From positions 1-27,108 of the IMG/VR virus record IMGVR_UViG_3300032214_000040: a stretch of 27,108 bases of DNA; one strand, given 5' to 3'. This DNA is from a virus. Position 1 is the stretch's first letter; every line of letters starts with the position of its first letter. Shown in pieces: positions 2,044-22,863 of this stretch. The position numbers were made by a program, and so were the translations under genes. The notes beneath the pieces are model-generated. The model ran no database searches. It was given only the letters and a program-made list of their open reading frames with translations, and was not told the DNA's origin.

Positions 2044-3927
2044 TTACATTCCTGATAATTCTTTAATACGAGCCAATTCGTTTACTGTTGGATCTTGTTG
2101 TTGAGGTGCCATACGTTCTACCATTTTACGAGCAATCATTTCTGCCTGTTCGCCAAACTTTTTGCCTACCATAATAGCAACACCTTCTGGGCCTTTAGGG
2201 AATGTGCCTGATTCACGGTCGTAAAAACTGTGAATAAATTCTGCCAATTCTTGAACGTTCATAGAACTTTGTTGATCTTCCATACCTAGTTCTTTCTTTT
2301 TGCGGGCTAGGCCTGCTGAACTAGTGGGCGACTTTGTTTTTTCGTCGTCAAGATCTTTTGTACTCATTTTCCAATCATCGCCGCCTTTTGCCTTACGCAT
2401 AAATGCTGGGACATCGCTCTTGTTAGGGCCTTGGTCAGCCTCTTCTTTTGGCGCTTCCGGTGCAGTTTGGTCACCTCCTTGGGCTGCTGCCGGCGCTTCG
2501 CCTGCTTCTGGCTCATCAACAAAGTCACCAAAATCTAATTCTTCAATTACTTCCGGTGCGTTAGATTCGAGCCAGTCTTTAACAATTCCTCTAACACAAG
2601 TGTCGGGATCTGTCTTAGCTGCTTCTTTAATACTTCTATATAGTTGAGGATCTTCGATTAGTCCTTTAAGACTTTCAATAGCGTTAGATCCGTCAACTCC
2701 TGCTGGAAAATGTTGTCCTACTAATTCTTGTAGTTCTTTAACTGCCTGTGCTTGTTCTTCGGGGTCTTCGCTAACAATTCCGCTTTCTTCCCCTAATCCC
2801 ATAACCCAGTTTTCAAATCTTTCAAATCCCGTAGGACTATCTTCTAGGTCAATTTCGAGGTCTTCATTAGATATTTGCTCTTCGCCCTGTGTCATTGCGA
2901 CTATGTCGTCATAGCCTAATTCACTTTCTTTCATCAGTCTATACAGAACTGGAAATACACCTTTAATGTCTTCTTTAAAATTACGTACTGTAAATTTTTC
3001 AGTATAATCTTCTACCACTTCTTCTGGTACTTCAAATTGTTCTTGTGGCACAAAACTTTCTCTGTAAGCCTCGTAGTGTGTTTGTTTGCCTAGTCTTGCT
3101 AGTTGTTCTCTTAAGTCGTTTAGCTGTTGTTGACTGCGTTCAACAATGTTATTTGTTTCAAAATTCATTAGGTCGTTGCGAACAACATAGTTGTTAAAAC
3201 TCTTTAATTGAGCAATCTGCTCGCTCATATTGATAATGCTTTTACCAACATCATCGTAAGGTACGCCACCGTTGGCCACATGACGCTGCATTGCACGAGC
3301 ACCACTTAGGTGAATGAACGGATACTTAAATCTTTCACCGTCTTGGTTTTCAACAAACAGTGCAGAAATATTTCTAGTTCTTGCTCCAGGCTGTGTATCG
3401 TCCATAACTGCCTGGCTGTGTTTGATGATAAGGCGTGTATCCATTAGCTTTTGATAGCTAACGTTTCTAGATCCATACATTGTACTTTCATTTACATTCA
3501 TTGTGCTTTCTCCAACGGGTTGTATCACGGAATTAGGTTGTTGTTTTGGTTGGTTATGCTGTGTAAGAAATTCATAATCTCTACGATCTAGATTGTCTTT
3601 AGCAATATCTCTTGTATCAAAACTCATTAATCTTCTTTTGGCAAAGACTCGCAATTCTTTTAGGAATCCGTACCAATTACTTTTTTGTACAGTATCCATA
3701 CTTTCGGATATACCTGTACTAAAATAAACTTTCAAGCTGTTAGACTCAGCTAGGCTAATGCTAACGTGCCCGATAGCCTTTTCACCTTCCATATAATCAA
3801 AGTCAAAAAATCTAGCTTCTTCTGGGTTAATGGTTATTTGGCCCATTTCGTTGCCCAGCTTTAGCCCTTTGAATCGACTTCTAATTTTATAGAATAAGTC
3901 TGTAGCGATATTATTAGTTGCATCCAT
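2044..3927 (-). CDS. Conserved-looking phage protein downstream of terminase, 627 aa, function unknown
   Basis: The N-terminal half (about 1-200) looks globular. It is followed by a predicted coiled coil around the stretch NMSEQIAQLKSFNNYVVRND to QQQLNDLREQLARLGKQ (about 235-285), a long acidic region rich in E and D (about 340-490), an Ala/Glu/Gln linker, and a compact C-terminus with HSFYDRESGTFPKGPEGVAI (about 560-580) and a helix FGEQAEMIARKMVERM. I recognise the C-terminal style from environmental T4-like phages but know no function; a virion or packaging role is guessed from its place after gp17. A longer reading frame starts at a TTG at 3942. I prefer the ATG at 3927, because the octamer GATAAATA ends exactly 5 nt before it, as for other late genes here. 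The gp17 stop codon overlaps the octamer. Confidence 0.8.
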   Translation of the reverse strand: MDATNNIATDLFYKIRSRFKGLKLGNEMGQITINPEEARFFDFDYMEGEKAIGHVSISLAESNSLKVYFSTGISESMDTVQKSNWYGFLKELRVFAKRRLMSFDTRDIAKDNLDRRDYEFLTQHNQPKQQPNSVIQPVGESTMNVNESTMYGSRNVSYQKLMDTRLIIKHSQAVMDDTQPGARTRNISALFVENQDGERFKYPFIHLSGARAMQRHVANGGVPYDDVGKSIINMSEQIAQLKSFNNYVVRNDLMNFETNNIVERSQQQLNDLREQLARLGKQTHYEAYRESFVPQEQFEVPEEVVEDYTEKFTVRNFKEDIKGVFPVLYRLMKESELGYDDIVAMTQGEEQISNEDLEIDLEDSPTGFERFENWVMGLGEESGIVSEDPEEQAQAVKELQELVGQHFPAGVDGSNAIESLKGLIEDPQLYRSIKEAAKTDPDTCVRGIVKDWLESNAPEVIEELDFGDFVDEPEAGEAPAAAQGGDQTAPEAPKEEADQGPNKSDVPAFMRKAKGGDDWKMSTKDLDDEKTKSPTSSAGLARKKKELGMEDQQSSMNVQELAEFIHSFYDRESGTFPKGPEGVAIMVGKKFGEQAEMIARKMVERMAPQQQDPTVNELARIKELSGM

Positions 3928-3932
3928 AGTTA

Positions 3933-3940
3933 TATTTATC
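3933..3940 (-). promoter_or_regulatory. Late-promoter octamer GATAAATA, 5 nt before ATG at 3927
   Basis: Minus strand TGATAAATA-TAACT-ATG. The TGA stop of gp17 (3941-3939) overlaps the octamer. One mismatch to the T4 late consensus TATAAATA. No Shine-Dalgarno is visible, so a leaderless transcript is predicted. Confidence 0.6.
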
Positions 3941-5525
3941 AAAAACCGCTACTTACAAAAATCGGCATTGGCATTTGATCTTCGGTAATTTTTTCAGTTA
4001 GTTTGTCGTAAATCTGCGGATCCCAGTCAGCTAGCACACTAGCCATCCTTATAATCAACAATACACCGCTGATAAGATCGTCGTGTTCTCCAGTCTTGGC
4101 ATTAAAACCTATTCCAGTAGCTACGAATGTTTTAAGTTCAGAAACTAGAGGTTTACTGTAGATTTTCATTTTTTGAGTTTCTAACATATTCTTAAGCTGA
4201 CTACAGGCTGTAATTTTTGTACGGTGAGTGGTATTAAATCCTTTACGGAACTTACGAACATGGCCCTTACGAATAGGCTCGCTTAAGAACAGACCTGGAA
4301 AGTTTTCTTCGCCAATATCTCGAATAACAATAAGAGCAGCTTCTCCTAGAGTATTATTTTCTACAGAATAGTATAGCTGCGGTGGCCCGCCTCTTTCTGT
4401 GCCTCGATCTTGAATGTATTTTAATATGTCTCGCATTACCTTTACTTGACTTTGTATAGGTGTTAGATTGTGACGCCATTCTGCTACCTGTTCCATAGTG
4501 GGCATTTCAAAGACCTGTATAGCGCCATAATCGCCACCAGTACCTAGACTAGGATCGTGAGCCACTAGATAAGTTGCATTTGGATTTATATCTTTATACC
4601 AGCGTGTTTGTCCCATAGTCATTATAGGATCAACACCTTTCATTTCTGCAAGGCGTACTGCGTTGATTAGCGTTTCGTCAAAGATCAAGAACTCACAGTC
4701 AAATTCTCGACGGAATCGCTCTTCTCCAATTTTACTGCGTTCTGTTTGTGCCCAGGCTTCGTCGCGATCTGGGTGTTCATTCCAGTGTGCAAAAAAGCTG
4801 TGGAATCCGTTTGTTCCTAGAGCCTGCTCATTACCAAACTCGTCAAAGCGTTTTTGTGCTTCAGTCCAGATTAGCGCAAACTGATCTTCGTCTGAGTTTG
4901 GAGTTGATGTGATAATACACTTACCGCCCGTTGATAATGTTGGTGATAATGCAGTCCAAAATTCTTTGGCTTTCTCTGGCGGCTGTACGAACGCAAACTC
5001 ATCGCAATAGATCAATGAAAGAGATTTACCACGACCAGTATTTTCTGTAGTTGTTACTGCTTGAATGCGAGCACCGTTATCGTATTCAATTGTATTTCTG
5101 TTGTATGAATAAACACCAGCACGAATAAAGTCTGGCAAGTTCTCGTAACCAAAGCGGTAACGATTCATAATATCCTGCGCACCTTCATATTTGTGAGCAG
5201 CAATAAGCACCTGTGCTTCTGGTACAAACATTGTGTACCATAATAAGTAGGCACAGGCGCAGGTTGTTTTACCCATCTGACGAGGTAACATAGCAATACA
5301 TTGCTTGTTGTTGTGATAAGCGTCGATTAATCTTTCTTGATATTCATAAGGTTCAAATGGAATTGACCCTCTAGTAGGGTGTTGAATTTTTAAGAAATTT
5401 TTAGCAAAATAGATAGGCCCAGTAACAGGATCCATACAGGCTTCAAGGTGTTTAACTTCCTCAAGGGTGTACCGCTGAGGAGCATGAGCTTTCTTAATTA
5501 AATTACCGTCTAGTGATTTTGCCAT
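3939..5525 (-). CDS. gp17: Terminase large subunit gp17 (ATPase-nuclease DNA packaging motor)
   Basis: 528 aa (T4 gp17 is 610). It docks at the portal, pumps DNA into the prohead using ATP and cuts the concatemer. The ATPase half shows the upstream FEPYEYQERLI region (57-67), the T4-type variant Walker A PRQMGKTT (81-88), Walker B LIYCDE (171-176) with catalytic E176, and the coupling motif ITSTPN (205-210). The C-terminal RNase-H-like nuclease shows its acidic residues at VAHDPSLGTGGDYGA (D324), YYSVENNTLGEA (E390) and GEHDDLISG (D482/D483). The start is the ATG at 5525, 5 nt after an AGTAAATA octamer and just behind a strong terminator; no ribosome site is visible. The small subunit gp16 is encoded upstream at 7240-7731, with three other genes between them. 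Confidence 0.97.
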   Translation of the reverse strand: MAKSLDGNLIKKAHAPQRYTLEEVKHLEACMDPVTGPIYFAKNFLKIQHPTRGSIPFEPYEYQERLIDAYHNNKQCIAMLPRQMGKTTCACAYLLWYTMFVPEAQVLIAAHKYEGAQDIMNRYRFGYENLPDFIRAGVYSYNRNTIEYDNGARIQAVTTTENTGRGKSLSLIYCDEFAFVQPPEKAKEFWTALSPTLSTGGKCIITSTPNSDEDQFALIWTEAQKRFDEFGNEQALGTNGFHSFFAHWNEHPDRDEAWAQTERSKIGEERFRREFDCEFLIFDETLINAVRLAEMKGVDPIMTMGQTRWYKDINPNATYLVAHDPSLGTGGDYGAIQVFEMPTMEQVAEWRHNLTPIQSQVKVMRDILKYIQDRGTERGGPPQLYYSVENNTLGEAALIVIRDIGEENFPGLFLSEPIRKGHVRKFRKGFNTTHRTKITACSQLKNMLETQKMKIYSKPLVSELKTFVATGIGFNAKTGEHDDLISGVLLIIRMASVLADWDPQIYDKLTEKITEDQMPMPIFVSSGF

Positions 5526-5530
5526 ATTGT

Positions 5531-5538
5531 TATTTACT
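5531..5538 (-). promoter_or_regulatory. Late-promoter octamer AGTAAATA, 5 nt before gp17 ATG
   Basis: Minus strand AGTAAATA-ACAAT-ATG, directly following the T-run of the terminator at 5544-5567. There is no Shine-Dalgarno between the terminator and the ATG. Confidence 0.6.
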
Positions 5539-5543
5539 GAAAA

Positions 5544-5567
5544 AAATAGGCCCGGTAGGGCCTATTT
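5544..5567 (-). terminator. Strong terminator between the 117-aa gene and gp17
   Basis: 10-bp perfect stem (aaataggccc 5544-5553; gggcctattt 5558-5567) with a 4-nt loop ggta, followed on the minus strand by a T-run. It isolates gp17 transcription from the upstream head genes. Confidence 0.9.
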
Positions 5568-5583
5568 GGAGTTTAACTTATAG

Positions 5584-5937
5584 TTAAGCTATAGTGATGC
5601 TTGCAGCATCTGCTACTGTAGTTCCAGTAACGTCAAGATCATTTGGTCCAACTGCTGTACCTAAATTTCTAATTCTTGTTTGAATATCTGCTGCGGAAAG
5701 ACTTACATCAGTAACAATGTGCATTGTGCCAGCAGAAGAATTAGTCACAAAGAACATCAAAGGATTTAATTCTTTAACAATCATTTCAACAGCTTCATCT
5801 ACTGCATCATCTTCTGCACGTAAATCTCTTGCACTTGCGGCAGCATTTTTAACTGTAACTAAAAATGCCTTGGCATTTAAAGAATACACTGTGCCTGCTG
5901 TACAGGCTAATCCGTTTACTCTTGCAAATTCAGCCAT
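5584..5937 (-). CDS. Small Ala/Thr-rich protein, 117 aa, possibly a virion protein
   Basis: Begins MAEFARVNGLACTAGTVYSL and ends TVADAASITIA. It alternates short hydrophobic strands with Ala/Thr/Asp-rich turns (VKNAAASARDLRAEDDAVDE around 29-48; DVSLSAADIQTRIRNLGTAV around 78-97). No transmembrane segment or Cys motif is seen. I recall similar small proteins in cyanophage-type genomes but no assigned function; an abundant structural or decoration role is a guess from the composition and the strong terminator right after it. The ribosome site AAGGAG precedes the ATG. The start overlaps the TAA of the upstream 242-aa gene (TAATG), so the two are coupled. Confidence 0.75.
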   Translation of the reverse strand: MAEFARVNGLACTAGTVYSLNAKAFLVTVKNAAASARDLRAEDDAVDEAVEMIVKELNPLMFFVTNSSAGTMHIVTDVSLSAADIQTRIRNLGTAVGPNDLDVTGTTVADAASITIA

Positions 5938-6665
5938 TATTTCGCTCCTTTAGCTTCTGCTAGACGTTTAGCAAGTTCAGCTTTAATACTTGCACGTAGG
6001 TCTGTGCTTTCTGTACGTTGCATTGGATTATCACCACCTGCAACTTTAGGATAAGTTCCTTTAGGACGATTCATACCACCGGCTAGTTTGTTAACCATAT
6101 AGTCAACATCCTTGATTTCTTCTTCAGGTTCGTTAGCCCACTCGTCTTTTTTCTTATCGTCTTTTTCCATATCGTGATCATCCATATCATGATCACCGTC
6201 ATTGTCTAGATCGCCTTGAGCCTTGCTTATATTGTCGCCTGGCATATTGTCAGCATCCATATCGCTTGGGCCGCCGAAATTATCTGCATCTGGCTCGCTG
6301 TGTGCGCCCTTAGGCTCGTCCATATCTAGATCTGGTAACATCTTTAATGGACCAGAATCTAAATTACCCAACGGTCCCATTTTAGGTCCCTTAGGAGGAG
6401 CAATTGGAATTTCCATTGGCATCGGCATAGGTGCAGGTTGATTGATCATATCAGGGTTAACCTTGGTCATCAACTTCATTATGCTTTCGATGTTATCCAT
6501 ACCTTGTGCATTTAAATTAATGCTAAGACTTGGAGGACTCGGTGGTGGTGTCATTGGAGGTGTAGGCATCCCTACTGGATCTCCACACGCTTCTACTTGT
6601 GCTGATTGTACTTGTGCTGGCTGATCGAGCTCACGCATCTTAGCCATTAAACTTTGAAAATCCAT
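5937..6665 (-). CDS. Asp/Pro/Met-rich low-complexity protein, 242 aa, function unknown
   Basis: A short helix (MDFQSLMAKMRELDQP) is followed by Pro/Met-rich stretches (PTPPMTPPPSPPS at about 34-46, then QPAPMPMPMEIPIAPP), then an acidic Asp/His/Lys run (DLDNDGDHDMDDHDMEKDDK, about 152-171). The C-terminal part is ordered-looking (DYMVNKLAGGMNRPKGTYPK, about 188-207) and ends in a helix IKAELAKRLAEAKGAK. I remember the AGGMNRPKGTYP-like motif from environmental T4-like phages, in proteins of unknown role. Position among packaging and head genes and the disordered, acidic nature would suit a scaffold, core or adaptor protein, but this is inference. The ribosome site GGGGAG is 6 nt before the ATG. 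Confidence 0.75.
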   Translation of the reverse strand: MDFQSLMAKMRELDQPAQVQSAQVEACGDPVGMPTPPMTPPPSPPSLSINLNAQGMDNIESIMKLMTKVNPDMINQPAPMPMPMEIPIAPPKGPKMGPLGNLDSGPLKMLPDLDMDEPKGAHSEPDADNFGGPSDMDADNMPGDNISKAQGDLDNDGDHDMDDHDMEKDDKKKDEWANEPEEEIKDVDYMVNKLAGGMNRPKGTYPKVAGGDNPMQRTESTDLRASIKAELAKRLAEAKGAK

Positions 6666-6667
6666 TA

Positions 6668-7231
6668 TTAACTCCCCATGGCGCTTTTAAGACCGGCTTT
6701 GTCAGCCTTTGCCTTGGGCAGCTTATATTCTGTTGGCCCGTCTTGATCTTTCTTGCGCTGTTTAGCAGCCTTTTCTAGATCTTTTAAAAATGTTTTATTA
6801 AAGTCATCGCCAAAATAATCTTTGCCTTTAACTTTAGGATTGCCTGCCTGTGCATCTGCTAATAATACTTCAGTCTTTGGTTCCTCAACTGAAGCTGCTT
6901 GTTCCATTTCACTAGGTTCATCGCTTCCTCTAACTCGGAAACGATCTTCAACAATGCCTAGTGATTTTATATCGCTGGAAATTTCTGGACTTGTAATTGG
7001 ATATTCACAAGTCACTTCAAAAATGTGAACTTCACAGTTTGACATTGTAGGAAAGTCTAAAGGTAGTGACTGAATTGGTGTTGTGCTGATCTTTTCTAGT
7101 TTAGCTACCTTGCATCGTTCTAAAGATGATTTTAGATTTTCTTGAAAAGACTCTGGCAACTCACCTGCAACTTTAATCTTAAAGCTGTAGACCTTTTTAC
7201 TTTCGGTAAGATATTCTTTTAGAGTTTTCAT
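6668..7231 (-). CDS. Probable internal (prohead-packaged) protein with T4-type capsid-targeting peptide, 187 aa
   Basis: The first ten residues MKTLKEYLTE closely match the capsid-targeting peptide of the T4 internal proteins (MKTYQEFIAE), including the final L/I-x-E that the gp21 protease cuts after. Cleavage here would leave SKKVYSFKIKV as the new N-terminus. The next part (about 14-100) looks like an alpha/beta fold with two Cys. The C-terminal third is charged and probably disordered, with a Lys-rich helix (KTFLKDLEKAAKQRKKDQDG, about 144-163). The function after packaging is unknown: it may be a core/scaffold part or be injected with the DNA. The ATG lies 5 nt after octamer CATAAATA; the gp16 stop is inside that octamer. 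No Shine-Dalgarno is visible. Confidence 0.75.
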   Translation of the reverse strand: MKTLKEYLTESKKVYSFKIKVAGELPESFQENLKSSLERCKVAKLEKISTTPIQSLPLDFPTMSNCEVHIFEVTCEYPITSPEISSDIKSLGIVEDRFRVRGSDEPSEMEQAASVEEPKTEVLLADAQAGNPKVKGKDYFGDDFNKTFLKDLEKAAKQRKKDQDGPTEYKLPKAKADKAGLKSAMGS

Positions 7232-7236
7232 AGTTG

Positions 7237-7244
7237 TATTTATG
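7237..7244 (-). promoter_or_regulatory. Late-promoter octamer CATAAATA, 5 nt before ATG at 7231
   Basis: Minus strand GCATAAATA-CAACT-ATG. The TAA of gp16 (7242-7240) is the TAA of the octamer. One mismatch to T4 TATAAATA. Confidence 0.6.
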
Positions 7245-7731
7245 CTTTTCCGCTTAATTTTTTCAGTAGCTCGTTGCGATCCGTAATCACATAGCCCTGT
7301 CCATTTATAACATCGTTGCCACCTTCTGGGGTGTCTTTGTCTATCTTATACTTCTTCATTTGAAGGTCAATAGCCTTAAGTTTCTTTTCAATTTTATTAG
7401 ACTTTGCTGTAATAGCGTGTCCTAACATACTGCTAGCGACTTCAAAAATACGGCTAGAATAACGAACTTCAACATTCATACCCAGATCCATTAATTCGTC
7501 ATAGGCTTTTTCTGCTTTTGATGCTAGGTCGTCAAGCTCGCCGTCGCCTAGATCGTTAAGCTCTTTAATCTCTGGTAAAGTTTGAGTAATACGCTCTACG
7601 GCTGCATAGCTATCATCTAAACTGCGTACTTCAGCGTGATCTTTAACTGGTAATTCAGCAGGTATTTCAACCTCAGGAACAGGCTGCGCTTTTTCTTCTA
7701 GGTTAAATAATTCTTCTAACTTTTTGGTCAT
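7240..7731 (-). CDS. gp16: Terminase small subunit gp16
   Basis: 163 aa, the same size as T4 gp16 (164). The T4 pattern is visible: a variable acidic N-terminus, then a DDSYAAVERITQTLPEIKEL segment (about 39-58) matching the T4 DDYGVVRRN region, then two long helices forming the oligomerisation core (SSRIFEVASSMLGHAITAKS, about 92-111, followed by NKIEKKLKAIDLQMKKYK), and a C-terminal NGQGYVITDRNELLKKLSG like the T4 stretch that ends in a short helix. gp16 recognises DNA and regulates the gp17 ATPase and nuclease. It is separated from gp17 by three genes, unlike T4 where they are adjacent. The octamer GATAAGTA lies 5 nt before the ATG and includes part of the gp4 stop. Confidence 0.8.
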   Translation of the reverse strand: MTKKLEELFNLEEKAQPVPEVEIPAELPVKDHAEVRSLDDSYAAVERITQTLPEIKELNDLGDGELDDLASKAEKAYDELMDLGMNVEVRYSSRIFEVASSMLGHAITAKSNKIEKKLKAIDLQMKKYKIDKDTPEGGNDVINGQGYVITDRNELLKKLSGKA

Positions 7732-7736
7732 AAGTG

Positions 7737-7744
7737 TACTTATC
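7737..7744 (-). promoter_or_regulatory. Late-promoter-like octamer GATAAGTA, 5 nt before gp16 ATG
   Basis: Minus strand TGATAAGTA-CACTT-ATG. The gp4 stop TGA (7745-7743) overlaps it. It has a G in place of one A, so it is weaker than the other sites. Confidence 0.45.
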
Positions 7745-8180
7745 AGCGTTTTGAGCCCTGATGAAAAATATGTTCTTCGTTGACTACTCTAAAAATTAGT
7801 CCTTGTTGTTTGCACCAAGCTCTAGCTGCTTCCCACTTAGCCATATTTTTAACATACTGTTCTTGATTGTATCTACTTTTGCCCACACTTTCTAATTGTG
7901 TTTGACTTAAAGGTTTAACTTCAACTACTTCGGCGTGTTTGCTGCCGGTCTTATCGTTGTAGACAATAAAGAAATCAGGCACGTATATTGTATACTTGCC
8001 CGTGAACGGATCTCTATAAGGAATCTGTATGCTTTCACTGGCCCACTTTTCCACGCCCTGGTGTTCGTCAAGCATTCGCATAAAAATAAATTCCCACGAA
8101 CTTCGAGCTAAGGGTGTTTTCTTACCTACGTATTTCTCTGGGTTTTTCATTTCAAAACGGCCTTGTGCAAACTTAGCCAT
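7743..8180 (-). CDS. gp4: Head completion protein gp4 (TnsA-like nuclease fold)
   Basis: 145 aa, close to T4 gp4 (150). The pattern is typical: basic N-terminus GRFEMKNPEKYVGKKTPLAR, then SSWEFIFMRMLDEH (28-40), then PYRDPFTGKYTIYVPDFFI (54-72), then AEVVEVKP (83-90). The PD-(D/E)xK-type residues are E30, D69 and E87-x-K89, so the nuclease core appears intact. gp4 acts at the end of head filling, before tail joining, and in T4 is needed for heads to be infectious; the substrate of its nuclease fold is not settled. The start overlaps the stop of the 123-aa gene (CTAATGG), with an AGGTG ribosome site upstream. Confidence 0.9.
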   Translation of the reverse strand: MAKFAQGRFEMKNPEKYVGKKTPLARSSWEFIFMRMLDEHQGVEKWASESIQIPYRDPFTGKYTIYVPDFFIVYNDKTGSKHAEVVEVKPLSQTQLESVGKSRYNQEQYVKNMAKWEAARAWCKQQGLIFRVVNEEHIFHQGSKR

Positions 8181-8551
8181 TAGGCACCTATATTTCTAGT
8201 TTTAAATGTATCGTTAGAGTCTGCCATTTTAAAGCCTAACGAACTTGAACTTGGTCTATTATTGTTTAATATTTCACCGACCAAGGCGCTGAGCTTTACT
8301 CCGTCCATTGTTTTAAGTTGATCGATTATTTTAAACACTGGCATCGATTCTAATTTTGCTTGTCTTAATAAAACAGCCGCAGTAATTTCAGCTGCATCTC
8401 TATCAAACCCCTTGCTTTGAAAAAATCCCACGGCCGCTTCAACATCATTGGCATTGAACTCTAAAGGAGACTGACCGTATTCGTCAAAAAATAATTTTGT
8501 TTTTGTACCGCTGTCTGTTGACGATACTGGTGCTGGAAGATTAGATCTCAT
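8180..8551 (-). CDS. Conserved-looking small phage protein, 123 aa, function unknown
   Basis: Begins MRSNLPAPVSSTDSGTKTKL and ends FKTRNIGA. The middle is helical: LEFNANDVEAAVGFFQSKGF (about 30-49), RDAAEITAAVLLRQAKLE (about 51-68) and a Leu-rich helix (VFKIIDQLKTMDGVKLSALV, about 72-91). The N- and C-termini are polar and likely extended. I associate this kind of protein with the tail/neck block of cyanophage-like genomes, but no function is known to me. It sits between the gp54-like gene (6 nt upstream) and gp4 (overlapping), in the same transcript, so a virion assembly role is plausible. Confidence 0.75.
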   Translation of the reverse strand: MRSNLPAPVSSTDSGTKTKLFFDEYGQSPLEFNANDVEAAVGFFQSKGFDRDAAEITAAVLLRQAKLESMPVFKIIDQLKTMDGVKLSALVGEILNNNRPSSSSLGFKMADSNDTFKTRNIGA

Positions 8552-8557
8552 AAGGTG

Positions 8558-9661
8558 TTATCCAAAAAACTTTCTTACTGAGGCTACTACACTATTTCCA
8601 GACGGAGCATTTCTAGGAAATATACTGCCTGCAATGCCGCCAATGGTATTAACGATTCCGCTTACGGCTGCTGGACTAGTAATAATCTGCCCTAATTCTC
8701 TTCCTATTCCCTCTTTGCTAAGACTCTTAACATTGTTATAGGTATTAACAGTTTTAATAGCAGTACTTAAGAAACCTCCAGGGCTATCAAATGTAGTTCC
8801 TTTAGCTACATCCCCAAAAACACTTTCAATGCCGCCCAATACTCCTGCTTCACCAAATAGTGTTTGTGTTCCACCTCCTTGAAGACTCAATGGACTCGGT
8901 GCAAAATCGTAGTGTAGACTAGCAAAACCTTGATCCTTAAGAGCACTAACACTGCCTGAACTATATTGTACAGATTCGTATTCAACCTGCATTGAACTTT
9001 CAACAGTGTCGCCTTCGGCATACGACATACTACCGTGACTCCAACTTTTTATTCTAGGATTGAGTAAAGTATAGCCATTAAAACGTTGACGACTCATTGT
9101 ATAGATACTAATTGATTCAAAAAAATCAACAGCTTTGTCGTTGTCTAGGCCATATCTAAAACTGTCAAGAGGAGTGTTGCCCGGTCTATAATTTAATTCG
9201 TTTCTGTAGGCATAAGATGGCAATTTTCTATCTTGTACATAGGCTGCATAATAAATTGCCCATAAAGAATTTATAATACCGGAATTATCGTCGTGAAAGG
9301 TAAAACTTACTGGCTCGTAGTTCAATGATTTATATAATAATTTTTTTCTATTATATTGATTCTTTGTGACCATATCAAAATTATACTTTGGAAGCTCTGC
9401 GGTTTTTACTAGAACACTTATTTCTTGAGAGTGTTTCTCAGTAAAGGCCAAGGCAGTATGTGCATCCTTTCTGATTTTAAAAACTGCATGATATAAAAAC
9501 TTATGGCGTGGTGCTAGTCTGAATGTATCGTCAACAAAGACTCTAGAGGCGTGTTGCCAATCGGCCATATGCCCTTTAGGTTTAATAATGCCGCCGATAA
9601 GTCCTTTTCCAAACGATCCAAGACTTTCGCCGATAAGATATCTTGTGAATTTATTTGCCAT
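8558..9661 (-). CDS. Baseplate tail-tube initiator-like protein (gp54-like)
   Basis: 367 aa (T4 gp54 is 320). It lies just after the tail tube gene. The central part resembles the tube fold: ISVLVKTAELPKYNFDMVTKN (about 84-104), KKLLYKSLNYEPVSFTFHDD (about 107-126), then NSLWAIYYAAYV, and later FFESISIYTMSRQRFNGYTL and NPRIKSWSHGSMSYAEGDTVESSMQVEYESVQY (split over about 185-240). The Arg/Lys-Tyr-rich strand with a supporting HDD and the EYE segment are typical of gp19/gp54-like proteins. The C-terminal third is a Gly/Ser-rich, weakly hydrophobic tail (GEAGVLGGIESVFGDV). gp54 tops the baseplate and starts tube growth. A role as another gp19 paralogue cannot be excluded. Behind a terminator; the octamer is 5 nt before the ATG. 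Confidence 0.65.
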   Translation of the reverse strand: MANKFTRYLIGESLGSFGKGLIGGIIKPKGHMADWQHASRVFVDDTFRLAPRHKFLYHAVFKIRKDAHTALAFTEKHSQEISVLVKTAELPKYNFDMVTKNQYNRKKLLYKSLNYEPVSFTFHDDNSGIINSLWAIYYAAYVQDRKLPSYAYRNELNYRPGNTPLDSFRYGLDNDKAVDFFESISIYTMSRQRFNGYTLLNPRIKSWSHGSMSYAEGDTVESSMQVEYESVQYSSGSVSALKDQGFASLHYDFAPSPLSLQGGGTQTLFGEAGVLGGIESVFGDVAKGTTFDSPGGFLSTAIKTVNTYNNVKSLSKEGIGRELGQIITSPAAVSGIVNTIGGIAGSIFPRNAPSGNSVVASVRKFFG

Positions 9662-9666
9662 ACAAT

Positions 9667-9674
9667 TATTTATG
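9667..9674 (-). promoter_or_regulatory. Late-promoter octamer CATAAATA, 5 nt before ATG at 9661
   Basis: Minus strand ACATAAATA-ATTGT-ATG, immediately following the gp19 terminator. No Shine-Dalgarno lies between. Confidence 0.65.
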
Positions 9675-9683
9675 TCATAAAAA

Positions 9684-9703
9684 AACCCGGCCTAAACCGG
9701 GTT
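9684..9703 (-). terminator. Terminator after gp19 (tail tube)
   Basis: 7-bp perfect stem (aacccgg 9684-9690; ccgggtt 9697-9703) with a 6-nt loop, followed on the minus strand by seven T. It ends the sheath-tube transcript. Confidence 0.9.
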
Positions 9704-9721
9704 CTTTTAAGTTAATTAAAA

Positions 9722-10342
9722 TTAACCTTGTTGACCAGTAATCAACGCTGTAGCTGCCTGACGTCCTACTAGTGTTCCTACTCCAACTGTACCAGCTTCG
9801 TGTAAGAAGTTATCGTATCTGATTGTTAAAGCCACTGTAGCAACTTCGTTGGTACCGTAGTTCAAATCACCGTAGTCTGTGTTTTGTAGGAAGCAACCAA
9901 AGCACTCAAAAGTTTCAAGTACTTGCGGGCCTAGTGCGCCGTTACCACCGTCTAGTACCTCAACACGAGTTGTAAACTTGTAGTCAATACCAGAACGAGC
10001 ACTTGCTTGCTCTAAGAAGTCGAACTGCTTCTGAATTTGTTGTCCAACTAACTTAACAACGTTACCACTAGCGTCGTCACGGACGTTTAGTGTTAGTGTT
10101 TCGTGTGTTGGTTTACCGCTCAAGTAAATCTTAGAGTTATAAACAGGAACTTCAATTTCTTCGAAAGAAACTTTAGGTCTGCTTACGTCAATCACTTGTT
10201 TTGTTAGCTCAGTACTAGCCTGAGTTCCGAAGCCAAGCAATGTCACTCTGAAGCGATACTTCAGTTTAGGCATCAACAAACCCTGGTTTGTACCTGGGCC
10301 TGCTGGGTTAATCGAAAAGTTATTTAATGATGTAATTGGCAT
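9722..10342 (-). CDS. gp19: Tail tube protein gp19
   Basis: 206 aa (T4 gp19 is 163). It follows the sheath gene directly, as in T4. The protein begins with PITSLNNFSINPAGPGTNQG and then KLKYRFRVTLLGFG (about 26-39), TKQVIDVSRPKVSFEEIEVP (about 47-66), YNSKIYLSGKPTHETLTLNV (about 68-87), and a C-terminal stretch LNYGTNEVATVALTIRYDNF (about 159-178), which is the usual beta-barrel tube pattern. Many copies stack as hexameric rings to form the inner tube through which DNA passes. A good ribosome site (CGGAG) precedes the ATG, and the gap to gp18 is only 16 nt, so the two are co-transcribed from the gp18 promoter and stopped by the terminator at 9684-9703. Confidence 0.9.
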   Translation of the reverse strand: MPITSLNNFSINPAGPGTNQGLLMPKLKYRFRVTLLGFGTQASTELTKQVIDVSRPKVSFEEIEVPVYNSKIYLSGKPTHETLTLNVRDDASGNVVKLVGQQIQKQFDFLEQASARSGIDYKFTTRVEVLDGGNGALGPQVLETFECFGCFLQNTDYGDLNYGTNEVATVALTIRYDNFLHEAGTVGVGTLVGRQAATALITGQQG

Positions 10343-10358
10343 TTCTTTGCTCCGTTAA

Positions 10359-13300
10359 TTAGATTTCACCAGTATTCTTGATACGTACTGGAATGTAGAT
10401 GAATTCAACTGCCTTAACTGGCTCAATTGCAATGTCAACATACAATTCATTACGATCAACTCTACTTGGTGTGTTGTTTGACTCATCGCAGACTACTGCA
10501 AAGTCATATAGAGCTCTTAGACCAACTAGTTCTAATAACAAGCTCTCTACTGCACCTTTGATTTCATCACGAGTGATAGCATCATTTGGTTCAAAGACAT
10601 ATGGACGAGCTAGTTTTGTTAGCTGGCTTCTTAGATATACAACTAGACGAGCTACGTTGATTCTATCTAGTGCGCTGGCATTTCTAGCACGAGTCTTCTG
10701 ACCATAAGCAACTAGTCCAACGCCAACAAAGAATGGAATTGGGTTAACTTTTAGATCATACAATACATCTCTTGTACCTTCGTTTAGAGCAACAGTTTGG
10801 AATTCGCCTGTAGCTGCATCGATATAACCAACGGATGTTGCGTTAGTAATACCACCACGTCTTGTTCCTGCTGGTGCAAACCAAGGATACGAAACTTGGT
10901 CGCTTAGTGCGATTGTTTTCAACATCATGTGACTTGCTGGAACAACTGCGTTAGCACCACCTAGGTCTGTAGTAAATCCGTTTGGATAGTAAACTGCACA
11001 ATATTCGTCGTAGCTGACAATACCGTCATCACCGTTGTCTGTTACTAGAGCAGCATTAGTACCCCAGTTCAACAATGATGTAGCATCGCTTGGTAGACGC
11101 AATGGAGTGTCGCCGATAACGAACGCTGTTTGACCACGATCAATGTTCAAGCTGATCAAGTTCTGTAGTGTTTCTGGATATCCAGGTGCAGCGATCAAGT
11201 TAAAGTTTCTGCGCTCTTCGTCGCGGATTTCTTGGCTAGTGTCAATCACTGACTTCATTGCCTGAATAACAACTTTACGCTGTGCCTTACGTCCAAAGCT
11301 ACCAGAACCGTCTTCGTTATTACCGCTTTCTGTGGTCCAACGATCTGGCCAATAGTTAGCCTGACTCTGTCCGAGTGCAAATACTGCGCCGTTAGGGCTG
11401 TTATCTGCGTCATAACGAACGTTACGCTCTGCTAGATTTAGATAGTTGTTTTGATATTTCTTAACATTACCGCCAGAAGCACGTAGGTTCCATAGCAACA
11501 TACCTTTTGGATATAGTGCAGGATCTGGAGCATCTGTGTCTAAGAAGTTGCTGATTAATAGATCAGCAATGTCATCGCTAGGTGCTGTTGTAGCTGTACC
11601 ACCGCTGGTTCCTGCACGAGCATCTGCAAACAATACACCTTGATCGCTAACTTGATCAGTCTTATCGACTAGTGCCCACTCTAGATTCAACCCGTCATAC
11701 TTGTAAATTGTTGGGAAGTTTTCCATATCAGCGGTGCTAATCCATAAGTCACCGTTTACAAGTGCTGTACCGTCGCTTTGTGTTGTTGGCTCACTAGCAG
11801 CAACAATTGGACCTGCTGGGTCAGTTTTTAGTGCTGCTGAAGCATTGTAGTAAGGGCTAGTTGCAGTTCTGTAGCCAACCCAAGTAATACCACTGTGTAC
11901 CATAATATCAACTTTGGCAAAGTTATTGTTATACCATAGTTGACCGTCTGTTGGCTCGTTTAGTGGAGAATCAGGACTTGCAGCAAAACCGTTGTTAGCT
12001 TCATCTGCTAATGGAGTCCAGTTAGTTACAATGTAATCTTCCTCTGCTTCTGAAGGAGCTGTATAGAAGTTTGTTGTGCCTGCTTCTGTAAACGGATTGT
12101 AAGGAGTAAACAATGCGGCAACAGGAGATCCTGTACCGTCTGTAAAACGAATTTCACCGCCAGCTTTGTGACTGATTGTAACTGTTCCAGCTGCTGTTAC
12201 TGCTGCTTCGATATGATTAGTTACAGAATTTCCAGCTGCGTCAGTCATAGAAATTGCATTGATTGCTGCTGCCAGTGTTTCAGCATCAGCACTAGTACCT
12301 ACCGATGTAAAAGTTACTGTACTAGCAGCTGATAATGCTAGAGCACCTTTAATGCTTTGTTTGATTGTAAAACTACGATCTGCTCCAGCAGTAATAGTTC
12401 CAGTAGTAATTTCAGTAGATTCAACTACCGTAGCTCCTGTAGTCGAACGTCTCCAAGTGCGGAAGCTCAATTCTTTAAAAGTTGTATCACGTGCATCTGG
12501 TAAAGAATCAGTACCATCTGCATAGCTAAATTGTTCTTCTGCATTAGCCTGAACATAGATACTATCTACCGGAATGTTTGCGCCGCCGCCGCTACGATCT
12601 AGATAGTAACTGGCTGCTGCACCGTTGTCATAGATAGGAGCATCAATTTCTGCCCATGCCTGTGTAGCTGAATTCCATTTCTTAACAATTAGATCTGCAC
12701 CGTTTCCAGGTGTAGTTGTCTTTAACCAAACGCTGCCAGTTGGCTTAGGTTCAGTGTCAGCTGTTTTCCACTCAGGAACTGCTGTGTGAGGAGCAATGGC
12801 CAATGTTGGTGGAAAGTATTCACCTGCTCTAATACCTACATCACTCAGTGTTGTAGTAGCCGCAATAATATCACCTGTACCAGCTGCTAGAACAATGCTA
12901 CCTGAACTTGTCGAGTCTGCATTACCTTCTGTAGCACCGTTGCTGTATAGGTATAGTTTGTTGCTTACTGCTTTTGCATAAACTCCAGAACTACCACCCA
13001 TTGCTGTATTAATGTCAGATACTAGGCTTGCTAGAGTTGTTCCGCTAGCGGTAATCAACGTACCGTTCAAATAGAATGTATCGCTAACACTCCAGCTTGC
13101 TGTGGTAATTGTTTTAGATGTTACTGTTGGCCAGCTTGCTGCCCAACCACCCGAACCAACTTTAACCCAAGAACCGGCGCTAACTAAACTTCCGCTTTCG
13201 TTGTATCCACCACCCGGGCTCTTGTAATAGATTCTTGCTAGTTCTTTTTGTACAGAACCAGTTTCAAAAACTACACAGTAGTCGCCAATACTACCAACAC

Positions 13301-13859
13301 TTGCTCTTGGAGCATTGCTGTTAATTTTAGTAGTTGCATCTGCATCTGTTAGAACAATCGGCTGCTTGATTGTGAAAGTTTGGCCGCCTGTGGTATCACC
13401 AGCAGCACCGTTCCACTCAAAAATACCCCAAGCACTTGCCGAAGTATCAAACCACCAAGCTCCGTCATCTGGTTCGCTGCCTGGCTCAATTGCTGTACCT
13501 TCTAATTCGTCTAGGTTAACATCAGCACGTACAATAAATGCGCTTGCTGAAACACCTAGGTAGCTGTAAGCTGCTAGAAGACCGTATTCGTTACGCTCAC
13601 TACCGTGAATTGGTGTGTTGCTAGGAGTCTTTTCAAAGAAAGGAACACCAAACAAATCGCCAACATCTTTCTGACTTGTTAGTCTAAATGCTTTACCAGC
13701 ATTTGCTTTTGTTGTAGCAGTAGCAGTGCCGGTGCCTGCTCCATTGCTTTTATCTTGTGCGGTCGCAACTACAATAAGGGGAGTAGTACCAGGTTCTGCT
13801 GGTGTGTAAAAACTCTCGTCAATTATCGTAACTTGTACGCCTGGGGAAACTAGTGCCAT
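10359..13859 (-). CDS. gp18: Tail sheath protein gp18, greatly enlarged
   Basis: 1166 aa, far longer than T4 gp18 (659). The ends are typical: N-terminus MALVSPGVQVTIIDESFYTP, and a C-terminal sheath core from about 850 to 1166 with RNFNLIAAPGYPETLQNLI (about 884-902), INVARLVVYLRSQLTKLARPY and the ending RVDRNELYVDIAIEPVKAVE, which carries the inter-subunit arm. Between about 120 and 850 is a large insert of Ser/Thr/Gly/Ala-rich beta-like sequence. It contains four copies of a short module of the form P..G..W....(Y/W)(N/D)G..W, at about 125-152, 361-405, 630-664 and 686-733. Sheath subunits contract to drive the tube into the cell. The inserts would project outward. The ribosome site AGGAG is strong. 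The gene has a leader behind a CTAAATA-type late promoter. Confidence 0.93.
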   Translation of the reverse strand: MALVSPGVQVTIIDESFYTPAEPGTTPLIVVATAQDKSNGAGTGTATATTKANAGKAFRLTSQKDVGDLFGVPFFEKTPSNTPIHGSERNEYGLLAAYSYLGVSASAFIVRADVNLDELEGTAIEPGSEPDDGAWWFDTSASAWGIFEWNGAAGDTTGGQTFTIKQPIVLTDADATTKINSNAPRASVGSIGDYCVVFETGSVQKELARIYYKSPGGGYNESGSLVSAGSWVKVGSGGWAASWPTVTSKTITTASWSVSDTFYLNGTLITASGTTLASLVSDINTAMGGSSGVYAKAVSNKLYLYSNGATEGNADSTSSGSIVLAAGTGDIIAATTTLSDVGIRAGEYFPPTLAIAPHTAVPEWKTADTEPKPTGSVWLKTTTPGNGADLIVKKWNSATQAWAEIDAPIYDNGAAASYYLDRSGGGANIPVDSIYVQANAEEQFSYADGTDSLPDARDTTFKELSFRTWRRSTTGATVVESTEITTGTITAGADRSFTIKQSIKGALALSAASTVTFTSVGTSADAETLAAAINAISMTDAAGNSVTNHIEAAVTAAGTVTISHKAGGEIRFTDGTGSPVAALFTPYNPFTEAGTTNFYTAPSEAEEDYIVTNWTPLADEANNGFAASPDSPLNEPTDGQLWYNNNFAKVDIMVHSGITWVGYRTATSPYYNASAALKTDPAGPIVAASEPTTQSDGTALVNGDLWISTADMENFPTIYKYDGLNLEWALVDKTDQVSDQGVLFADARAGTSGGTATTAPSDDIADLLISNFLDTDAPDPALYPKGMLLWNLRASGGNVKKYQNNYLNLAERNVRYDADNSPNGAVFALGQSQANYWPDRWTTESGNNEDGSGSFGRKAQRKVVIQAMKSVIDTSQEIRDEERRNFNLIAAPGYPETLQNLISLNIDRGQTAFVIGDTPLRLPSDATSLLNWGTNAALVTDNGDDGIVSYDEYCAVYYPNGFTTDLGGANAVVPASHMMLKTIALSDQVSYPWFAPAGTRRGGITNATSVGYIDAATGEFQTVALNEGTRDVLYDLKVNPIPFFVGVGLVAYGQKTRARNASALDRINVARLVVYLRSQLTKLARPYVFEPNDAITRDEIKGAVESLLLELVGLRALYDFAVVCDESNNTPSRVDRNELYVDIAIEPVKAVEFIYIPVRIKNTGEI

Positions 13860-13892
13860 ATTGTATTCTCCTGAGGTTTAGTTCTCTCATAA

Positions 13893-13900
13893 TATTTAGC
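13893..13900 (-). promoter_or_regulatory. Late-promoter octamer GCTAAATA upstream of gp18
   Basis: Minus strand GCTAAATA about 33 nt before the gp18 ATG; CTAAATA is the late-promoter variant described for T4-like cyanophages. Unlike the leaderless-type sites here, it leaves a leader of roughly 28 nt with an AGGAG ribosome site, as expected for a highly expressed protein. Confidence 0.6.
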
Positions 13901-13952
13901 GTAGTCTAGGAAAAATGGGCAGTTATAGCATACCGAAAAGGGATTGAAAAGG

Positions 13953-13960
13953 TGTAAATA
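13953..13960 (+). promoter_or_regulatory. Late-promoter octamer TGTAAATA, 5 nt before ATG at 13966
   Basis: Plus strand TGTAAATA-TCTGT-ATG. It is divergent from the gp18 promoter and lies about 53 nt from it. A weak GAAAAGG stretch lies upstream of the octamer and so would not be in the predicted transcript. Confidence 0.55.
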
Positions 13961-13965
13961 TCTGT

Positions 13966-14301
13966 ATGAGACCCCTTTGTAAGTGCGCACAGCGACCTCG
14001 GGCCGTTAACTATAAAAAGAACGGCAGAACATACTATCGTAGCCTTTGCGAAATCTGTATGGCACACGGACTTAATCACGGGATACCCCGCTGGTTTAGA
14101 GCAGGGTATCGAGTAAAACTACAGTGCGATCGTTGCGGGTTTAAATCACTTCACAAAGATCCTTTTAGAGTTTTTCACGTCGACGGCGATCTAAATAATT
14201 GTAGACCAGCAAATTTAAAAACTGTTTGTCTAAACTGTGCCAGCGTGTTAGCTAAAGACGGAGTCCTGTGGAAGCAGGGAGATCTCGTTGCTGACTATTA
14301 A
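13966..14301 (+). CDS. Cys/His-rich HNH-like zinc-ribbon protein, 111 aa
   Basis: Four Cys-containing knuckles are visible: LCKCAQRPRA (4-13), LCEICMAHG (27-35), LQCDRCGFKS (about 52-61), and VCLNCAS (about 87-93). Between the last two is FRVFHVDGDLNNCRPANLKT (about 67-86), which looks like the HVDGDxxNNxxxNL core of HNH endonucleases flanked by zinc-binding pairs. Small proteins of this type occur in environmental T4-like phages, where I know no proven function; DNA or RNA binding or nicking is a reasonable inference. It is on the strand opposite to its neighbours and its 3' end overlaps the 3' end of the gp1 gene by 54 nt. The start fits the octamer-N5-ATG pattern. Confidence 0.8.
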   Translation: MRPLCKCAQRPRAVNYKKNGRTYYRSLCEICMAHGLNHGIPRWFRAGYRVKLQCDRCGFKSLHKDPFRVFHVDGDLNNCRPANLKTVCLNCASVLAKDGVLWKQGDLVADY

Positions 14302-14901
14302 TTTTGCCTGCTGATAAAGCTGGTCAATAGATCCATTATTATCTATAATTGAATTAAAATCTGTACCTACCCAGGCAGTTTCACTGGCATGAATCTTACG
14401 CATCTTTAGATCTTGTACTGCCCAATTATGACCTCGATTGGCTTCTATGGCTGTGTCGTACCAGTCGGGTAGCTTGCCTCGCTGTACCCATACAATTTGA
14501 CCGCCGGCATCACGTATGCTTTGAATTTCGTTAGGAAAACGACAATCCGAAATAACAACATTGTCTTTTGAATTACGCAGTTTGTTTTCTAAGCTGGCAA
14601 TCCAGATATCGTCGTGAAAGCCCTTGCGGCATACTTCTGTTCCCCAGTATTGTAGTACCCAACGAGGAGTAAGAGTAGGCATATCTAGTCTTGCGGCCCA
14701 CCAAGGATCTATTTGTTCCCGCCATTCTCGAGCTTCTTTAGTACGTCCCTCTAACATTGTTCGATCCCAACCAAACACTGCTGCCACTGCATCTTTAAGA
14801 GTTGACGCGAAACTTTCTCTTCTAAACTCGTGAAAGTTAACTAGATAGTCTGCAACAGTATCTTTGCCGCTGCCTATAAATCCGCAAATCCCAATAATCA
14901 T
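14248..14901 (-). CDS. gp1: Deoxynucleoside monophosphate kinase gp1
   Basis: 217 aa (T4 gp1 is 241). It phosphorylates dNMPs to dNDPs with ATP, feeding phage DNA synthesis in the cytoplasm. The N-terminal P-loop is GFIGSGKDT (7-15). Family-typical segments follow: ESFASTLKDAVAAVFGWDR (about 29-47), RWVLQYWGTEVCRKGF (about 80-95), HDDIWIASLENKL (about 96-108), and NVVISDCRFPNEIQSIRDAG (about 114-133), where the D-x-RFPNE motif binds substrate or nucleotide. The last 18 codons overlap the convergent 13966-14301 gene. The ribosome site (GAGGA) lies inside the end of the zinc-ribbon gene upstream, so the two form one early unit from the sigma70-type promoter at 15127-15155. Confidence 0.9.
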   Translation of the reverse strand: MIIGICGFIGSGKDTVADYLVNFHEFRRESFASTLKDAVAAVFGWDRTMLEGRTKEAREWREQIDPWWAARLDMPTLTPRWVLQYWGTEVCRKGFHDDIWIASLENKLRNSKDNVVISDCRFPNEIQSIRDAGGQIVWVQRGKLPDWYDTAIEANRGHNWAVQDLKMRKIHASETAWVGTDFNSIIDNNGSIDQLYQQAKLIVSNEISLLPQDSVFS

Positions 14902-14902
14902 A

Positions 14903-15109
14903 TTAATCCTCTATTTGGTAAAAATCTTTTATAGTAGGATCTTTTGGTGCCTGCGGCCATTTACCTTTAGGGCATTCGGAAACATTCCAAACTACTTTTG
15001 CTGGCATAAAACAAAGACATTGACTGCAGAATTTAGTAAATGTATTAAATTCTTCGCAGGTTTTACAAGTACTATATCTTTGTTGGGCAGTTTCTTTTTT
15101 AATTAACAC
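14903..15109 (-). CDS. Small zinc-ribbon protein, 68 aa (paralogue of 24418-24603)
   Basis: Two Cys pairs are visible, TCKTCEEF and FCSQCLCFMPAKV, then a final ECPKGKW. The pattern RYxxCxxC...CxxCxCFMPxK...CPxxKW is shared with the second copy at 24418-24603, and I believe it matches a small domain family of unknown function (DUF6171-like). It probably binds zinc through the four or five Cys and may be an adaptor or regulator. A longer frame starts at a TTG at 15139, but that codon lies upstream of the predicted transcription start (about 15120). I choose the GTG at 15109, which has a GGAG site 7 nt before it and aligns with the start of the paralogue (ETAQQRYSTC beside ETLAQSRYNVC). Confidence 0.75.
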   Translation of the reverse strand: MLIKKETAQQRYSTCKTCEEFNTFTKFCSQCLCFMPAKVVWNVSECPKGKWPQAPKDPTIKDFYQIED

Positions 15110-15126
15110 CTTCGATCTCCAAGTAC

Positions 15127-15155
15127 AGTATGCACTCAAAGAAAGAGGTTGTCAA
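15127..15155 (-). promoter_or_regulatory. Sigma70-type (early) promoter for zinc-ribbon and gp1 genes
   Basis: Minus strand TTGACA (15155-15150), 17 nt, CATACT (15132-15127). The -35 is perfect, and the spacing equals that of the gp32 promoter. It suits early expression of dNMP kinase inside an otherwise late region. Confidence 0.75.
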
Positions 15156-15162
15156 ATAATTT

Positions 15163-15921
15163 TTAACCAATTATAAATGCGTAGCCTGAACCACCAGAAA
15201 CAAGTGTTTCTAATTCTTTGGTTAGTCGATCTAAATCGGCTTGTGCTTCAGTTTTCATTGCCGCGCCATTCAGGCTGCTTCCGCCTTGCGGGCCTGCAAT
15301 TTGAGCAAACTTTTCACGGGCCTGCCCTAGCATCATCTTGCAGTTGGCTAGACTGTAATCTTTGATCCACTGTCCTGCGTAGGTGTCGTTGATGATAGCG
15401 TGATCTGGTTTAGTATTGTAACACCACAGCATAACTTCTTCGTCGCCTCTAGGACGCTGCATTATTACCAGTTTACGGCTCTGTGGGTTCCAAGTAAAGT
15501 TAATAAATGATCCAAACATCTTACCTACTAATTCTTGGTACTGGCTAAACAATTCGTAGGTAAGCAGGCCGCCCATATTAGTTGAGCTCAACAAATAGGT
15601 ATTTGTATAGGCTAGGTTAAATGGTTCAAATACTGTACCACCCGTTCCGTTGCCAGAACGTGATCCTACCGATCTTCTAAAAATCTGTCTAACCTGCTGT
15701 ATCTCTTTAGGCAAGATATACTCGTTAGTATTTTCTCTAAGAGTTAAAAACGCAAAACTTTCTTCAACAGCGTTATCGCTACGCTGCCTAAAAACTCCAA
15801 GGCTTCTAGATAATGCTGTTTCGTAGTGGATAGGGTCGAGTTCGATGTCTATCATACCATCGCCCAGCATTGCTTTGCAGTAATCGTAGACGTCTTTTTT
15901 AGCTTGATCTATTTGGTTCAT
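15163..15921 (-). CDS. gp13: Neck protein gp13
   Basis: 252 aa (T4 gp13 is 309). Recognised by the pattern known from cyanophage gp13: DIELDPIHYETALSRSLGVF (about 25-44), RQRSDNAVEESFAFLTL (about 45-61), EYILPKEIQQVRQIFRRSVG (about 67-86), AYTNTYLL, GGLLTYELFSQYQELVGKMFG (split over about 117-137), then NDTYAGQWIKDYSLANCKMM (about 178-197) and the end AGPQGGSSLNGAAM plus a helix. gp13 with gp14 seals the filled head below the portal and makes the tail docking site. It is encoded on the strand opposite to gp14, which is unusual. The octamer GGTAAATA lies 5 nt before the ATG; a second TGTAAATA is at 15963-15970 on the same strand. Confidence 0.88.
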   Translation of the reverse strand: MNQIDQAKKDVYDYCKAMLGDGMIDIELDPIHYETALSRSLGVFRQRSDNAVEESFAFLTLRENTNEYILPKEIQQVRQIFRRSVGSRSGNGTGGTVFEPFNLAYTNTYLLSSTNMGGLLTYELFSQYQELVGKMFGSFINFTWNPQSRKLVIMQRPRGDEEVMLWCYNTKPDHAIINDTYAGQWIKDYSLANCKMMLGQAREKFAQIAGPQGGSSLNGAAMKTEAQADLDRLTKELETLVSGGSGYAFIIG

Positions 15922-15926
15922 ACAAC

Positions 15927-15934
15927 TATTTACC
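15927..15934 (-). promoter_or_regulatory. Late-promoter octamer GGTAAATA, 5 nt before gp13 ATG
   Basis: Minus strand CGGTAAATA-GTTGT-ATG. The same nonamer CGGTAAATA stands before gp14 on the other strand (16411-16419), so the two neck genes have mirror-image promoters. Confidence 0.65.
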
Positions 15935-15968: not shown

Positions 15969-15976
15969 CATAAATA
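15969..15976 (+). promoter_or_regulatory. Late-promoter octamer CATAAATA upstream of HNH gene
   Basis: Plus strand CATAAATA, 17 nt before the ATG at 15994, leaving a short leader with a GAGG ribosome site. Confidence 0.55.
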
Positions 15977-15993
15977 CTTTAAGAGGAAAAAAT

Positions 15994-16416: not shown

Positions 16417-16419
16417 ATA
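16412..16419 (+). promoter_or_regulatory. Late-promoter octamer GGTAAATA before gp14
   Basis: Plus strand CGGTAAATA, 7 nt before the gp14 ATG, 2 nt more than at most other sites. The TAA stop of the HNH gene is part of it. No Shine-Dalgarno is visible. Confidence 0.55.
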
Positions 16420-16426
16420 TACTACT

Positions 16427-19596: not shown

Positions 19597-19606
19597 TAAG
19601 TACTGG

Positions 19607-22861: not shown

Positions 22862-22863
22862 AT

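Follow-up and report, generated by a model that had tools for sequence, protein, structure and literature searches.

Gene content of the contig

The analyzed sequence, to which we refer as the window, is a 27,108-base virus contig (IMG/VR record IMGVR_UViG_3300032214_000040, positions 1 to 27,108) from a T4-like phage, with gene identities assigned by family matches (PHROGs). These matches identify an ssDNA-binding protein (362-1348), a 627-aa virion structural protein (2044-3927, minus strand), the terminase large subunit gp17 (3939-5525, minus), a head or internal protein (6668-7231, minus), a gp16-like small terminase (7240-7731, minus), a gp4-type head closure protein (7743-8180), two tail-tube proteins (8558-9661, minus, and 9722-10342), the gp18 tail sheath (10359-13859, minus), a dNMP kinase (14248-14901), a gp13-like neck protein (15163-15921, minus), an HNH endonuclease (15994-16416, plus), a tail sheath stabilizer (17707-19596) and several fibre proteins. 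A 111-aa protein gene (13966-14301, plus) and a further virion structural gene (16427-17707, plus) are also present. The gp13 homology was found for the orthologues of 15163-15921 by iterative search. An earlier note on this DNA had described the gene starting at 9661 as gp54-like, but its PHROGs matches are tail-tube families and not gp54.

Several of the products are of interest in their own right. The tail sheath protein (10359-13859, minus) measures 1166 aa and is far longer than T4 gp18. The fibre region at 20229-24372 (minus) contains a duplication, in which two neighbors both match the phrog_2295 family and have similar starts, and a third fibre gene has a weaker phrog_7459 match in common with them. 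The consensus N-terminus of the orthologues of the 7231 gene is MKTFKEYLAESKK, which we take to resemble the capsid-targeting sequences found at the N-termini of T4 internal head proteins.

The cultured phages with the most similar terminase are Pseudomonas phage PA5oct and its relatives, at 54% identity. The nearest sequences overall are IMG/VR contigs of up to 364 kb with terminases 86-98% identical; given the length of these relatives, the contig probably derives from the genome of a jumbo phage.

Putative late-promoter boxes at a fixed distance from start codons

Seven genes of the window carry a TAAATA or TAAGTA hexamer exactly five bases before the ATG (N5), at the sites where the earlier note had placed them: TAAATA before the ATGs at 3927, 5525, 7231, 9661 and 15921 on the minus strand and at 13966 on the plus strand, and TAAGTA before the ATG at 7731 on the minus strand. 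The start codon is ATG at all seven sites, and searches beyond the contig covered ATG starts only. In the 627-aa structural gene TAAATA occupies 3933-3938 and is followed by TAACT and the ATG (box to start codon, 3925..3938, minus); the box lies directly 3' of the gp17 TGA stop. The box of gp17 itself is found at 5531-5536 (5523..5536, minus), and that of the head or internal protein gene at 7237-7242 (7229..7242, minus), where its TAA doubles as the gp16 stop codon. The gp16-like small terminase has TAAGTA at 7737-7742 (7729..7742, minus), directly after the stop of the gp4-like gene. The remaining boxes precede the tail-tube-family gene (9667-9672; 9659..9672, minus), the gene of the 111-aa protein (13955-13960; 13955..13968, plus) and the gp13-like neck protein gene (15927-15932; 15919..15932, minus). 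A Shine-Dalgarno (SD) sequence is absent between box and ATG in all seven genes, as had been observed before.

Two short-spaced sites had been overlooked: TAAATA at 16414-16419, at N7 from the ATG of the virion structural gene at 16427 (16414..16429, plus), and TAAGTA at N4 from the ATG of the gene 19607-19996 (19597..19609, plus). The latter is possibly a further candidate leaderless site; the orthologue search found none for it. By contrast, genes with more distant boxes keep a ribosome binding site, in agreement with the earlier description. TAAATA at 15971-15976 stands at N17 from the ATG of the HNH endonuclease, with the SD AGAGG in between (15971..15996, plus), and TAAATA at 13893-13898 stands at N33 from the ATG of gp18, with the SD AGGAG (13857..13898, minus).

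Taken by itself, TAAATA shows no enrichment in the window (26 occurrences, 31.7 expected), as would be the case if the N5 boxes were products of chance or of the composition of an A+T-rich genome. The excess is nevertheless specific to the spacing, both in shuffles of the contig and in orthologues. The pattern TAARTAN5ATG is found 7 times against 1.12 expected, a count that none of 100 shuffles attains. The 60-nt stretches ahead of the 28 gene starts contain 16 TAARTA boxes, 7 of them at N5, whereas in 2000 shuffles of the upstream regions no single spacing received more than 3 boxes, which bears out the earlier judgement that a fixed 5-nt spacing is hard to obtain by chance. Other A/T hexamers do not produce a comparable peak at the same spacing. 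The signal is the spacing and not the abundance of TAAATA, and the probability that chance or composition accounts for it is vanishingly small.

Conservation of the boxes in orthologous genes

We compared the seven genes with their orthologues in 80 relatives (L008-L087), counting distinct upstream sequences. A box at N4-N6 is found in 191 of 194 such sequences, and the base preceding the ATG (-1) is T or C in 191 of the 191 that have it. The 627-aa gene shows N4 or N5 in 33/33 sequences and gp17 shows N4-N6 in 22/25. The spacing is kept in 34/34 sequences for the 7231 gene, in 34/34 for the gp16-like gene (24 at N4, 10 at N5), in 34/34 for the tail-tube gene at 9661, in 24/24 for the 13966 gene and in 10/10 for the gp13-like gene. 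The other genes of the contig with orthologues have no N4-N6 box, except for one N6 at 16427; most of them have an SD, the exceptions being the genes at 8180 and 8551 with few SD matches.

The box had originally been described as an octamer. In the orthologue alignment the hexamer holds and is essentially invariant as TAAATA (TAAGTA at gp16), but the two bases that precede it in the T4 octamer are not conserved. The letters of the spacer vary, with the exception of the pyrimidine at -1, and indels at gp16 and gp17 change the length of the spacer, always within N4-N6. SD-like matches of the 7231 gene must sit at or before the box, and hence before the predicted transcription start, because no SD core occurs between box and ATG.

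These alignments also bear on the assignment of start codons: an ATG might coincide with the transcription start by accident, while the real, SD-led start lies further downstream. No evidence supporting such misassignment was found. Third-codon-position differences dominate from codon 2 onward after these ATGs, and 2 of 257 sequences contain an alternative start with an SD in the first 20 codons; the ATGs are therefore real starts. The ATG also remains at N4-N6 when the spacer length shifts, and we regard misassigned starts as very improbable.

Spacing classes and the predicted transcription start

A spacing scan over relatives, proposed in the earlier note, reveals a sharp N5 peak with shoulders at N4 and N6-8 in 80 close and 80 more distant relatives as well as in two genomes of 350-360 kb. 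N5 is dominant in the relatives, while N4 and N7 form minor classes. In the two large genomes, G001 (364 kb) and G002 (353 kb), the distances from TAAATA to ATG are distributed bimodally. N4-N8 accounts for 26 and 42 called genes, respectively, and N9-N15 for 3 and 4; the second class is broad, begins at N16 and often has an SD. The close IMG/VR set contains 340 N5 boxes and a total of 5 at N9-N15, and the distant set 96 and 17. Raw whole-genome pattern counts are weak, as the reversed-pattern control of the tool contains ATAAAT, and gene-level spacing was used instead. The near emptiness of N9-N15 suggests that leaders of ~4-10 nt, too short for an SD and yet not leaderless, are avoided, which is what a leaderless model predicts. 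An SD core between box and ATG is found in 0 of the 398 distinct short-spaced upstream sequences of both IMG/VR sets, and 95% of these 398 leaderless-type sequences have a pyrimidine at -1, as opposed to 43% of SD genes.

The first base of the T4 late octamer is located at -13 (PMC2988020), which makes the sixth base downstream of TAAATA +1. Among late promoters with a leader, A stands here in 59% of cases in T4, 78% in PA5oct and 70% in the lineage of the contig; A at the sixth base is a preference (59-78%). At N5 the sixth base is the A of the ATG, and the predicted +1 thus falls on the start codon. The N5 peak and the A preference together lend support to the earlier reading that +1 would be the A of the ATG. 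Very probably, the boxes are T4-type gp55-dependent late promoters whose transcripts begin on the A of the ATG or up to 3 nt upstream of it. The seven genes would then produce late mRNAs that are leaderless or have leaders of 0-3 nt, leaders of 1-3 nt being compatible with the observed spacings.

A related possibility is that most of these genes have their transcription start 1-5 nt upstream of the ATG, so that the mRNAs are SD-free but not strictly leaderless. Start-site choice at -10-type promoters is flexible, and in the N7 class of the relatives 89% of the sequences have A five bases after the box, so that a 3-nt leader is predicted. For the N7 class, leaders of 1-3 nt are likely, and the 16427 mRNA would begin with ACU-AUG, its leader being predicted at 0-3 nt. 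The strong pyrimidine preference at -1 and the near fixation of N5/N4 among the short spacings, however, point to the A of the ATG as +1, and we consider an ultra-short leader at most genes possible but rather unlikely.

Terminators, late sigma factor and gene classes

An intrinsic terminator with a 10-bp stem and a T run lies just upstream of the gp17 promoter (5544..5567, minus; -15.5 kcal/mol, z -4.2). Another hairpin followed by a T run, also of the intrinsic type, is located immediately upstream of the 9661 promoter (9683..9704, minus; -14 kcal/mol, z -3.4). Both are kept in the relatives shown in the alignment, and both end ~14 nt before the ATG. Upstream transcripts are therefore expected to stop before gp17 and the 9661 gene, and the mRNA of each gene could have only a very short leader of its own.

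The box could also be regarded as a translational signal or a relic of spacing, with coupling or re-initiation on polycistronic mRNA accounting for translation of the genes. Three boxes overlap or abut the stop of the upstream gene at a typical coupling distance, and the genes at 3927, 7231 and 7731 could be translated in this manner from read-through mRNA. The boxes at 5525, 9661, 13966 and 15921, on the other hand, have a terminator upstream or lie in a spacer between divergent genes. The box also occurs ahead of SD-led genes, at N16-N36, in genomes that have the short-spaced class, and a late sigma factor is encoded. Coupling as the general explanation is improbable on these grounds.

The late sigma factor of the gp55 family (phrog_234) is present in 10/10 phages searched, namely four relatives of the lineage (G001-G004), PA5oct, XacN1, HTVC008M, T4, Syn9 and S-PM2, and in 0/14 control genomes. 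The gp55 gene lies outside the 27,108-base contig and was seen in the four relatives. A search of the relatives for the gp45 sliding clamp with PF02916 (Pfam) gave no convincing match. A sigma-70 reading of the sites was rejected: a scan for -10/-35 elements reports none of the seven boxes.

With the boxes taken as gp55-dependent late promoters, host RNA polymerase, equipped with the gp55 homologue of the phage, would start transcription on the A located six bases (five at N4) after TAAATA, with a pyrimidine before it, and the resulting mRNA would begin with 5'-AUG. SD-free leaderless mRNA is read by recognition of the 5'-AUG, probably by 70S ribosomes, and the SD-free late mRNAs may be translated by this leaderless route.

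Homology to T4 proteins in G001 and G002 assigns gp17 and gp13 to the leaderless class and gp18 and gp6 to the leadered class in both genomes, and gp19 to the leadered class in G001. For the major capsid gene, a strong SD was found and no late box nearby. Our impression is that abundant virion proteins (sheath, tube, major capsid) are SD-led, and many low-copy morphogenesis proteins (gp17, gp16-like, gp13) leaderless, a division that might have a meaning for protein dosage.

Distribution among T4-like phages

T4, Syn9, S-PM2 and PA5oct have leadered late genes and no N4-N6 class; a single T4 gene falls at N4-N6. Two cultured phages do display short-spaced boxes. Xanthomonas citri phage XacN1 has 15 TAAATA boxes at N5-N6, a looser set with a pyrimidine at -1 in 10/16, and a search of IMG/VR with its terminase found no relatives. 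Pelagibacter phage HTVC008M has 11 TAAATA boxes at N5, and in its published annotation, made independently, the starts of the gp2-, gp3- and gp4-like genes and of the tape-measure gene lie exactly N5 after TAAATA. Fifty-eight of its IMG/VR relatives contain 116 boxes at N5, 27 at N6 and 3 at N9-N15, and its more distant relatives few; many of these contigs are near-identical, and the counts are therefore not independent. The leaderless class is not a general property of T4-like phages, being absent from T4, Syn9, S-PM2 and PA5oct and from the stretches of Phosso, Atu_ph07, CBB and Munch. PA5oct lacks an N5 class, yet most of its uncultured relatives (L199-L278, terminases 53-59% identical) have one.

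Some of these phages encode components of the translation apparatus. Ribosomal protein bS21 is encoded in G001 (292290-292445, minus) and G002 (33352-33510, plus), and also in PA5oct, Phosso and Atu_ph07 and, by annotation, in HTVC008M; none is found in XacN1. As an explanation bS21 was rejected: its presence in G001, G002, PA5oct, Phosso and Atu_ph07, and not in XacN1, does not track the leaderless class. Assignment of a host from the phage bS21 rested on one weak match of 41% identity and was dropped. An IF3 homologue occurs in Sinorhizobium phage Phosso (382560-382817, plus) and Agrobacterium phage Atu_ph07 (256-501, minus). IF3 disfavors leaderless mRNAs, and no leaderless class is seen in the examined stretch of either phage; among the phages searched IF3 is found only in them and RegB only in T4, and neither was retained as an explanation.

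A broader scenario would combine a two-class late programme with a phage-driven shift of host ribosomes, for example by the phage's own bS21, to leaderless initiation late in infection, the trait having arisen separately, by adaptation to how the host translates, in pelagimyophages, XacN1 and the freshwater lineage. We consider this scenario speculative and unlikely.

Discussion

T4 provides a textbook example of late transcription, and its late genes carry SD leaders. The sites described here resemble T4 late promoters (TATAAATA, gp55/gp33/gp45) in having a TAAATA core about one helical turn before the predicted +1 without a needed -35 element, a phage-encoded sigma of the gp55 type and a favored A at the sixth base after the box. 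They differ in their distance from the gene: in T4 the box typically lies 13-29 nt before the ATG, with the strongest peak at N28 and an SD leader, whereas in the lineage of the contig dozens of genes have it at N4-N8. Cyanophages Syn9 and S-PM2 likewise share the T4-type late box and gp55, but their boxes lie ~20 nt or more upstream and form no N4-N6 class, unlike those of HTVC008M, a pelagiphage of the same family.

Leaderless transcripts are known from other settings. Most middle and late transcripts of Thermus phage phiYS40 have no leader, and these were reported together with raised IF2 and lowered IF3 (PMC3594737). That phage and its host are unrelated to the lineage of the contig. To our knowledge, no T4-type TAAATA late promoter is known in phiYS40. 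The late promoters of phiKZ are cited as TATG with G as the transcription start, so that the start overlaps an ATG-like sequence (cited in PMC5312081). The phiKZ promoters are used by a phage multisubunit RNA polymerase rather than by the host enzyme together with gp55. Bacterial leaderless genes offer another parallel, with a -10-type box five to seven nt before an SD-free start codon. They depend on a host sigma and a TANNNT box, while the lineage of the contig uses a phage TAAATA late box. Our literature search, which lacked most subscription journals, found no report of leaderless mRNAs at T4-type late promoters. As phiYS40 demonstrates, leaderless late phage mRNAs are already known; their predicted use at T4-type late promoters would be new.

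In an earlier study, late promoters were not predictable in pelagimyophages (PMC7029224). If our reading of the boxes is true, promoter finders that expect a leader would miss N5 boxes, and this may explain the failed prediction (PMC7029224). The TAAATA-N5-ATG rule would be usable for calling gene starts, and late leaderless translation in Gram-negative hosts would be testable in the cultured phages HTVC008M and XacN1. On the same reading, many T4-like phages of lakes and seas would start their late mRNAs at the AUG.
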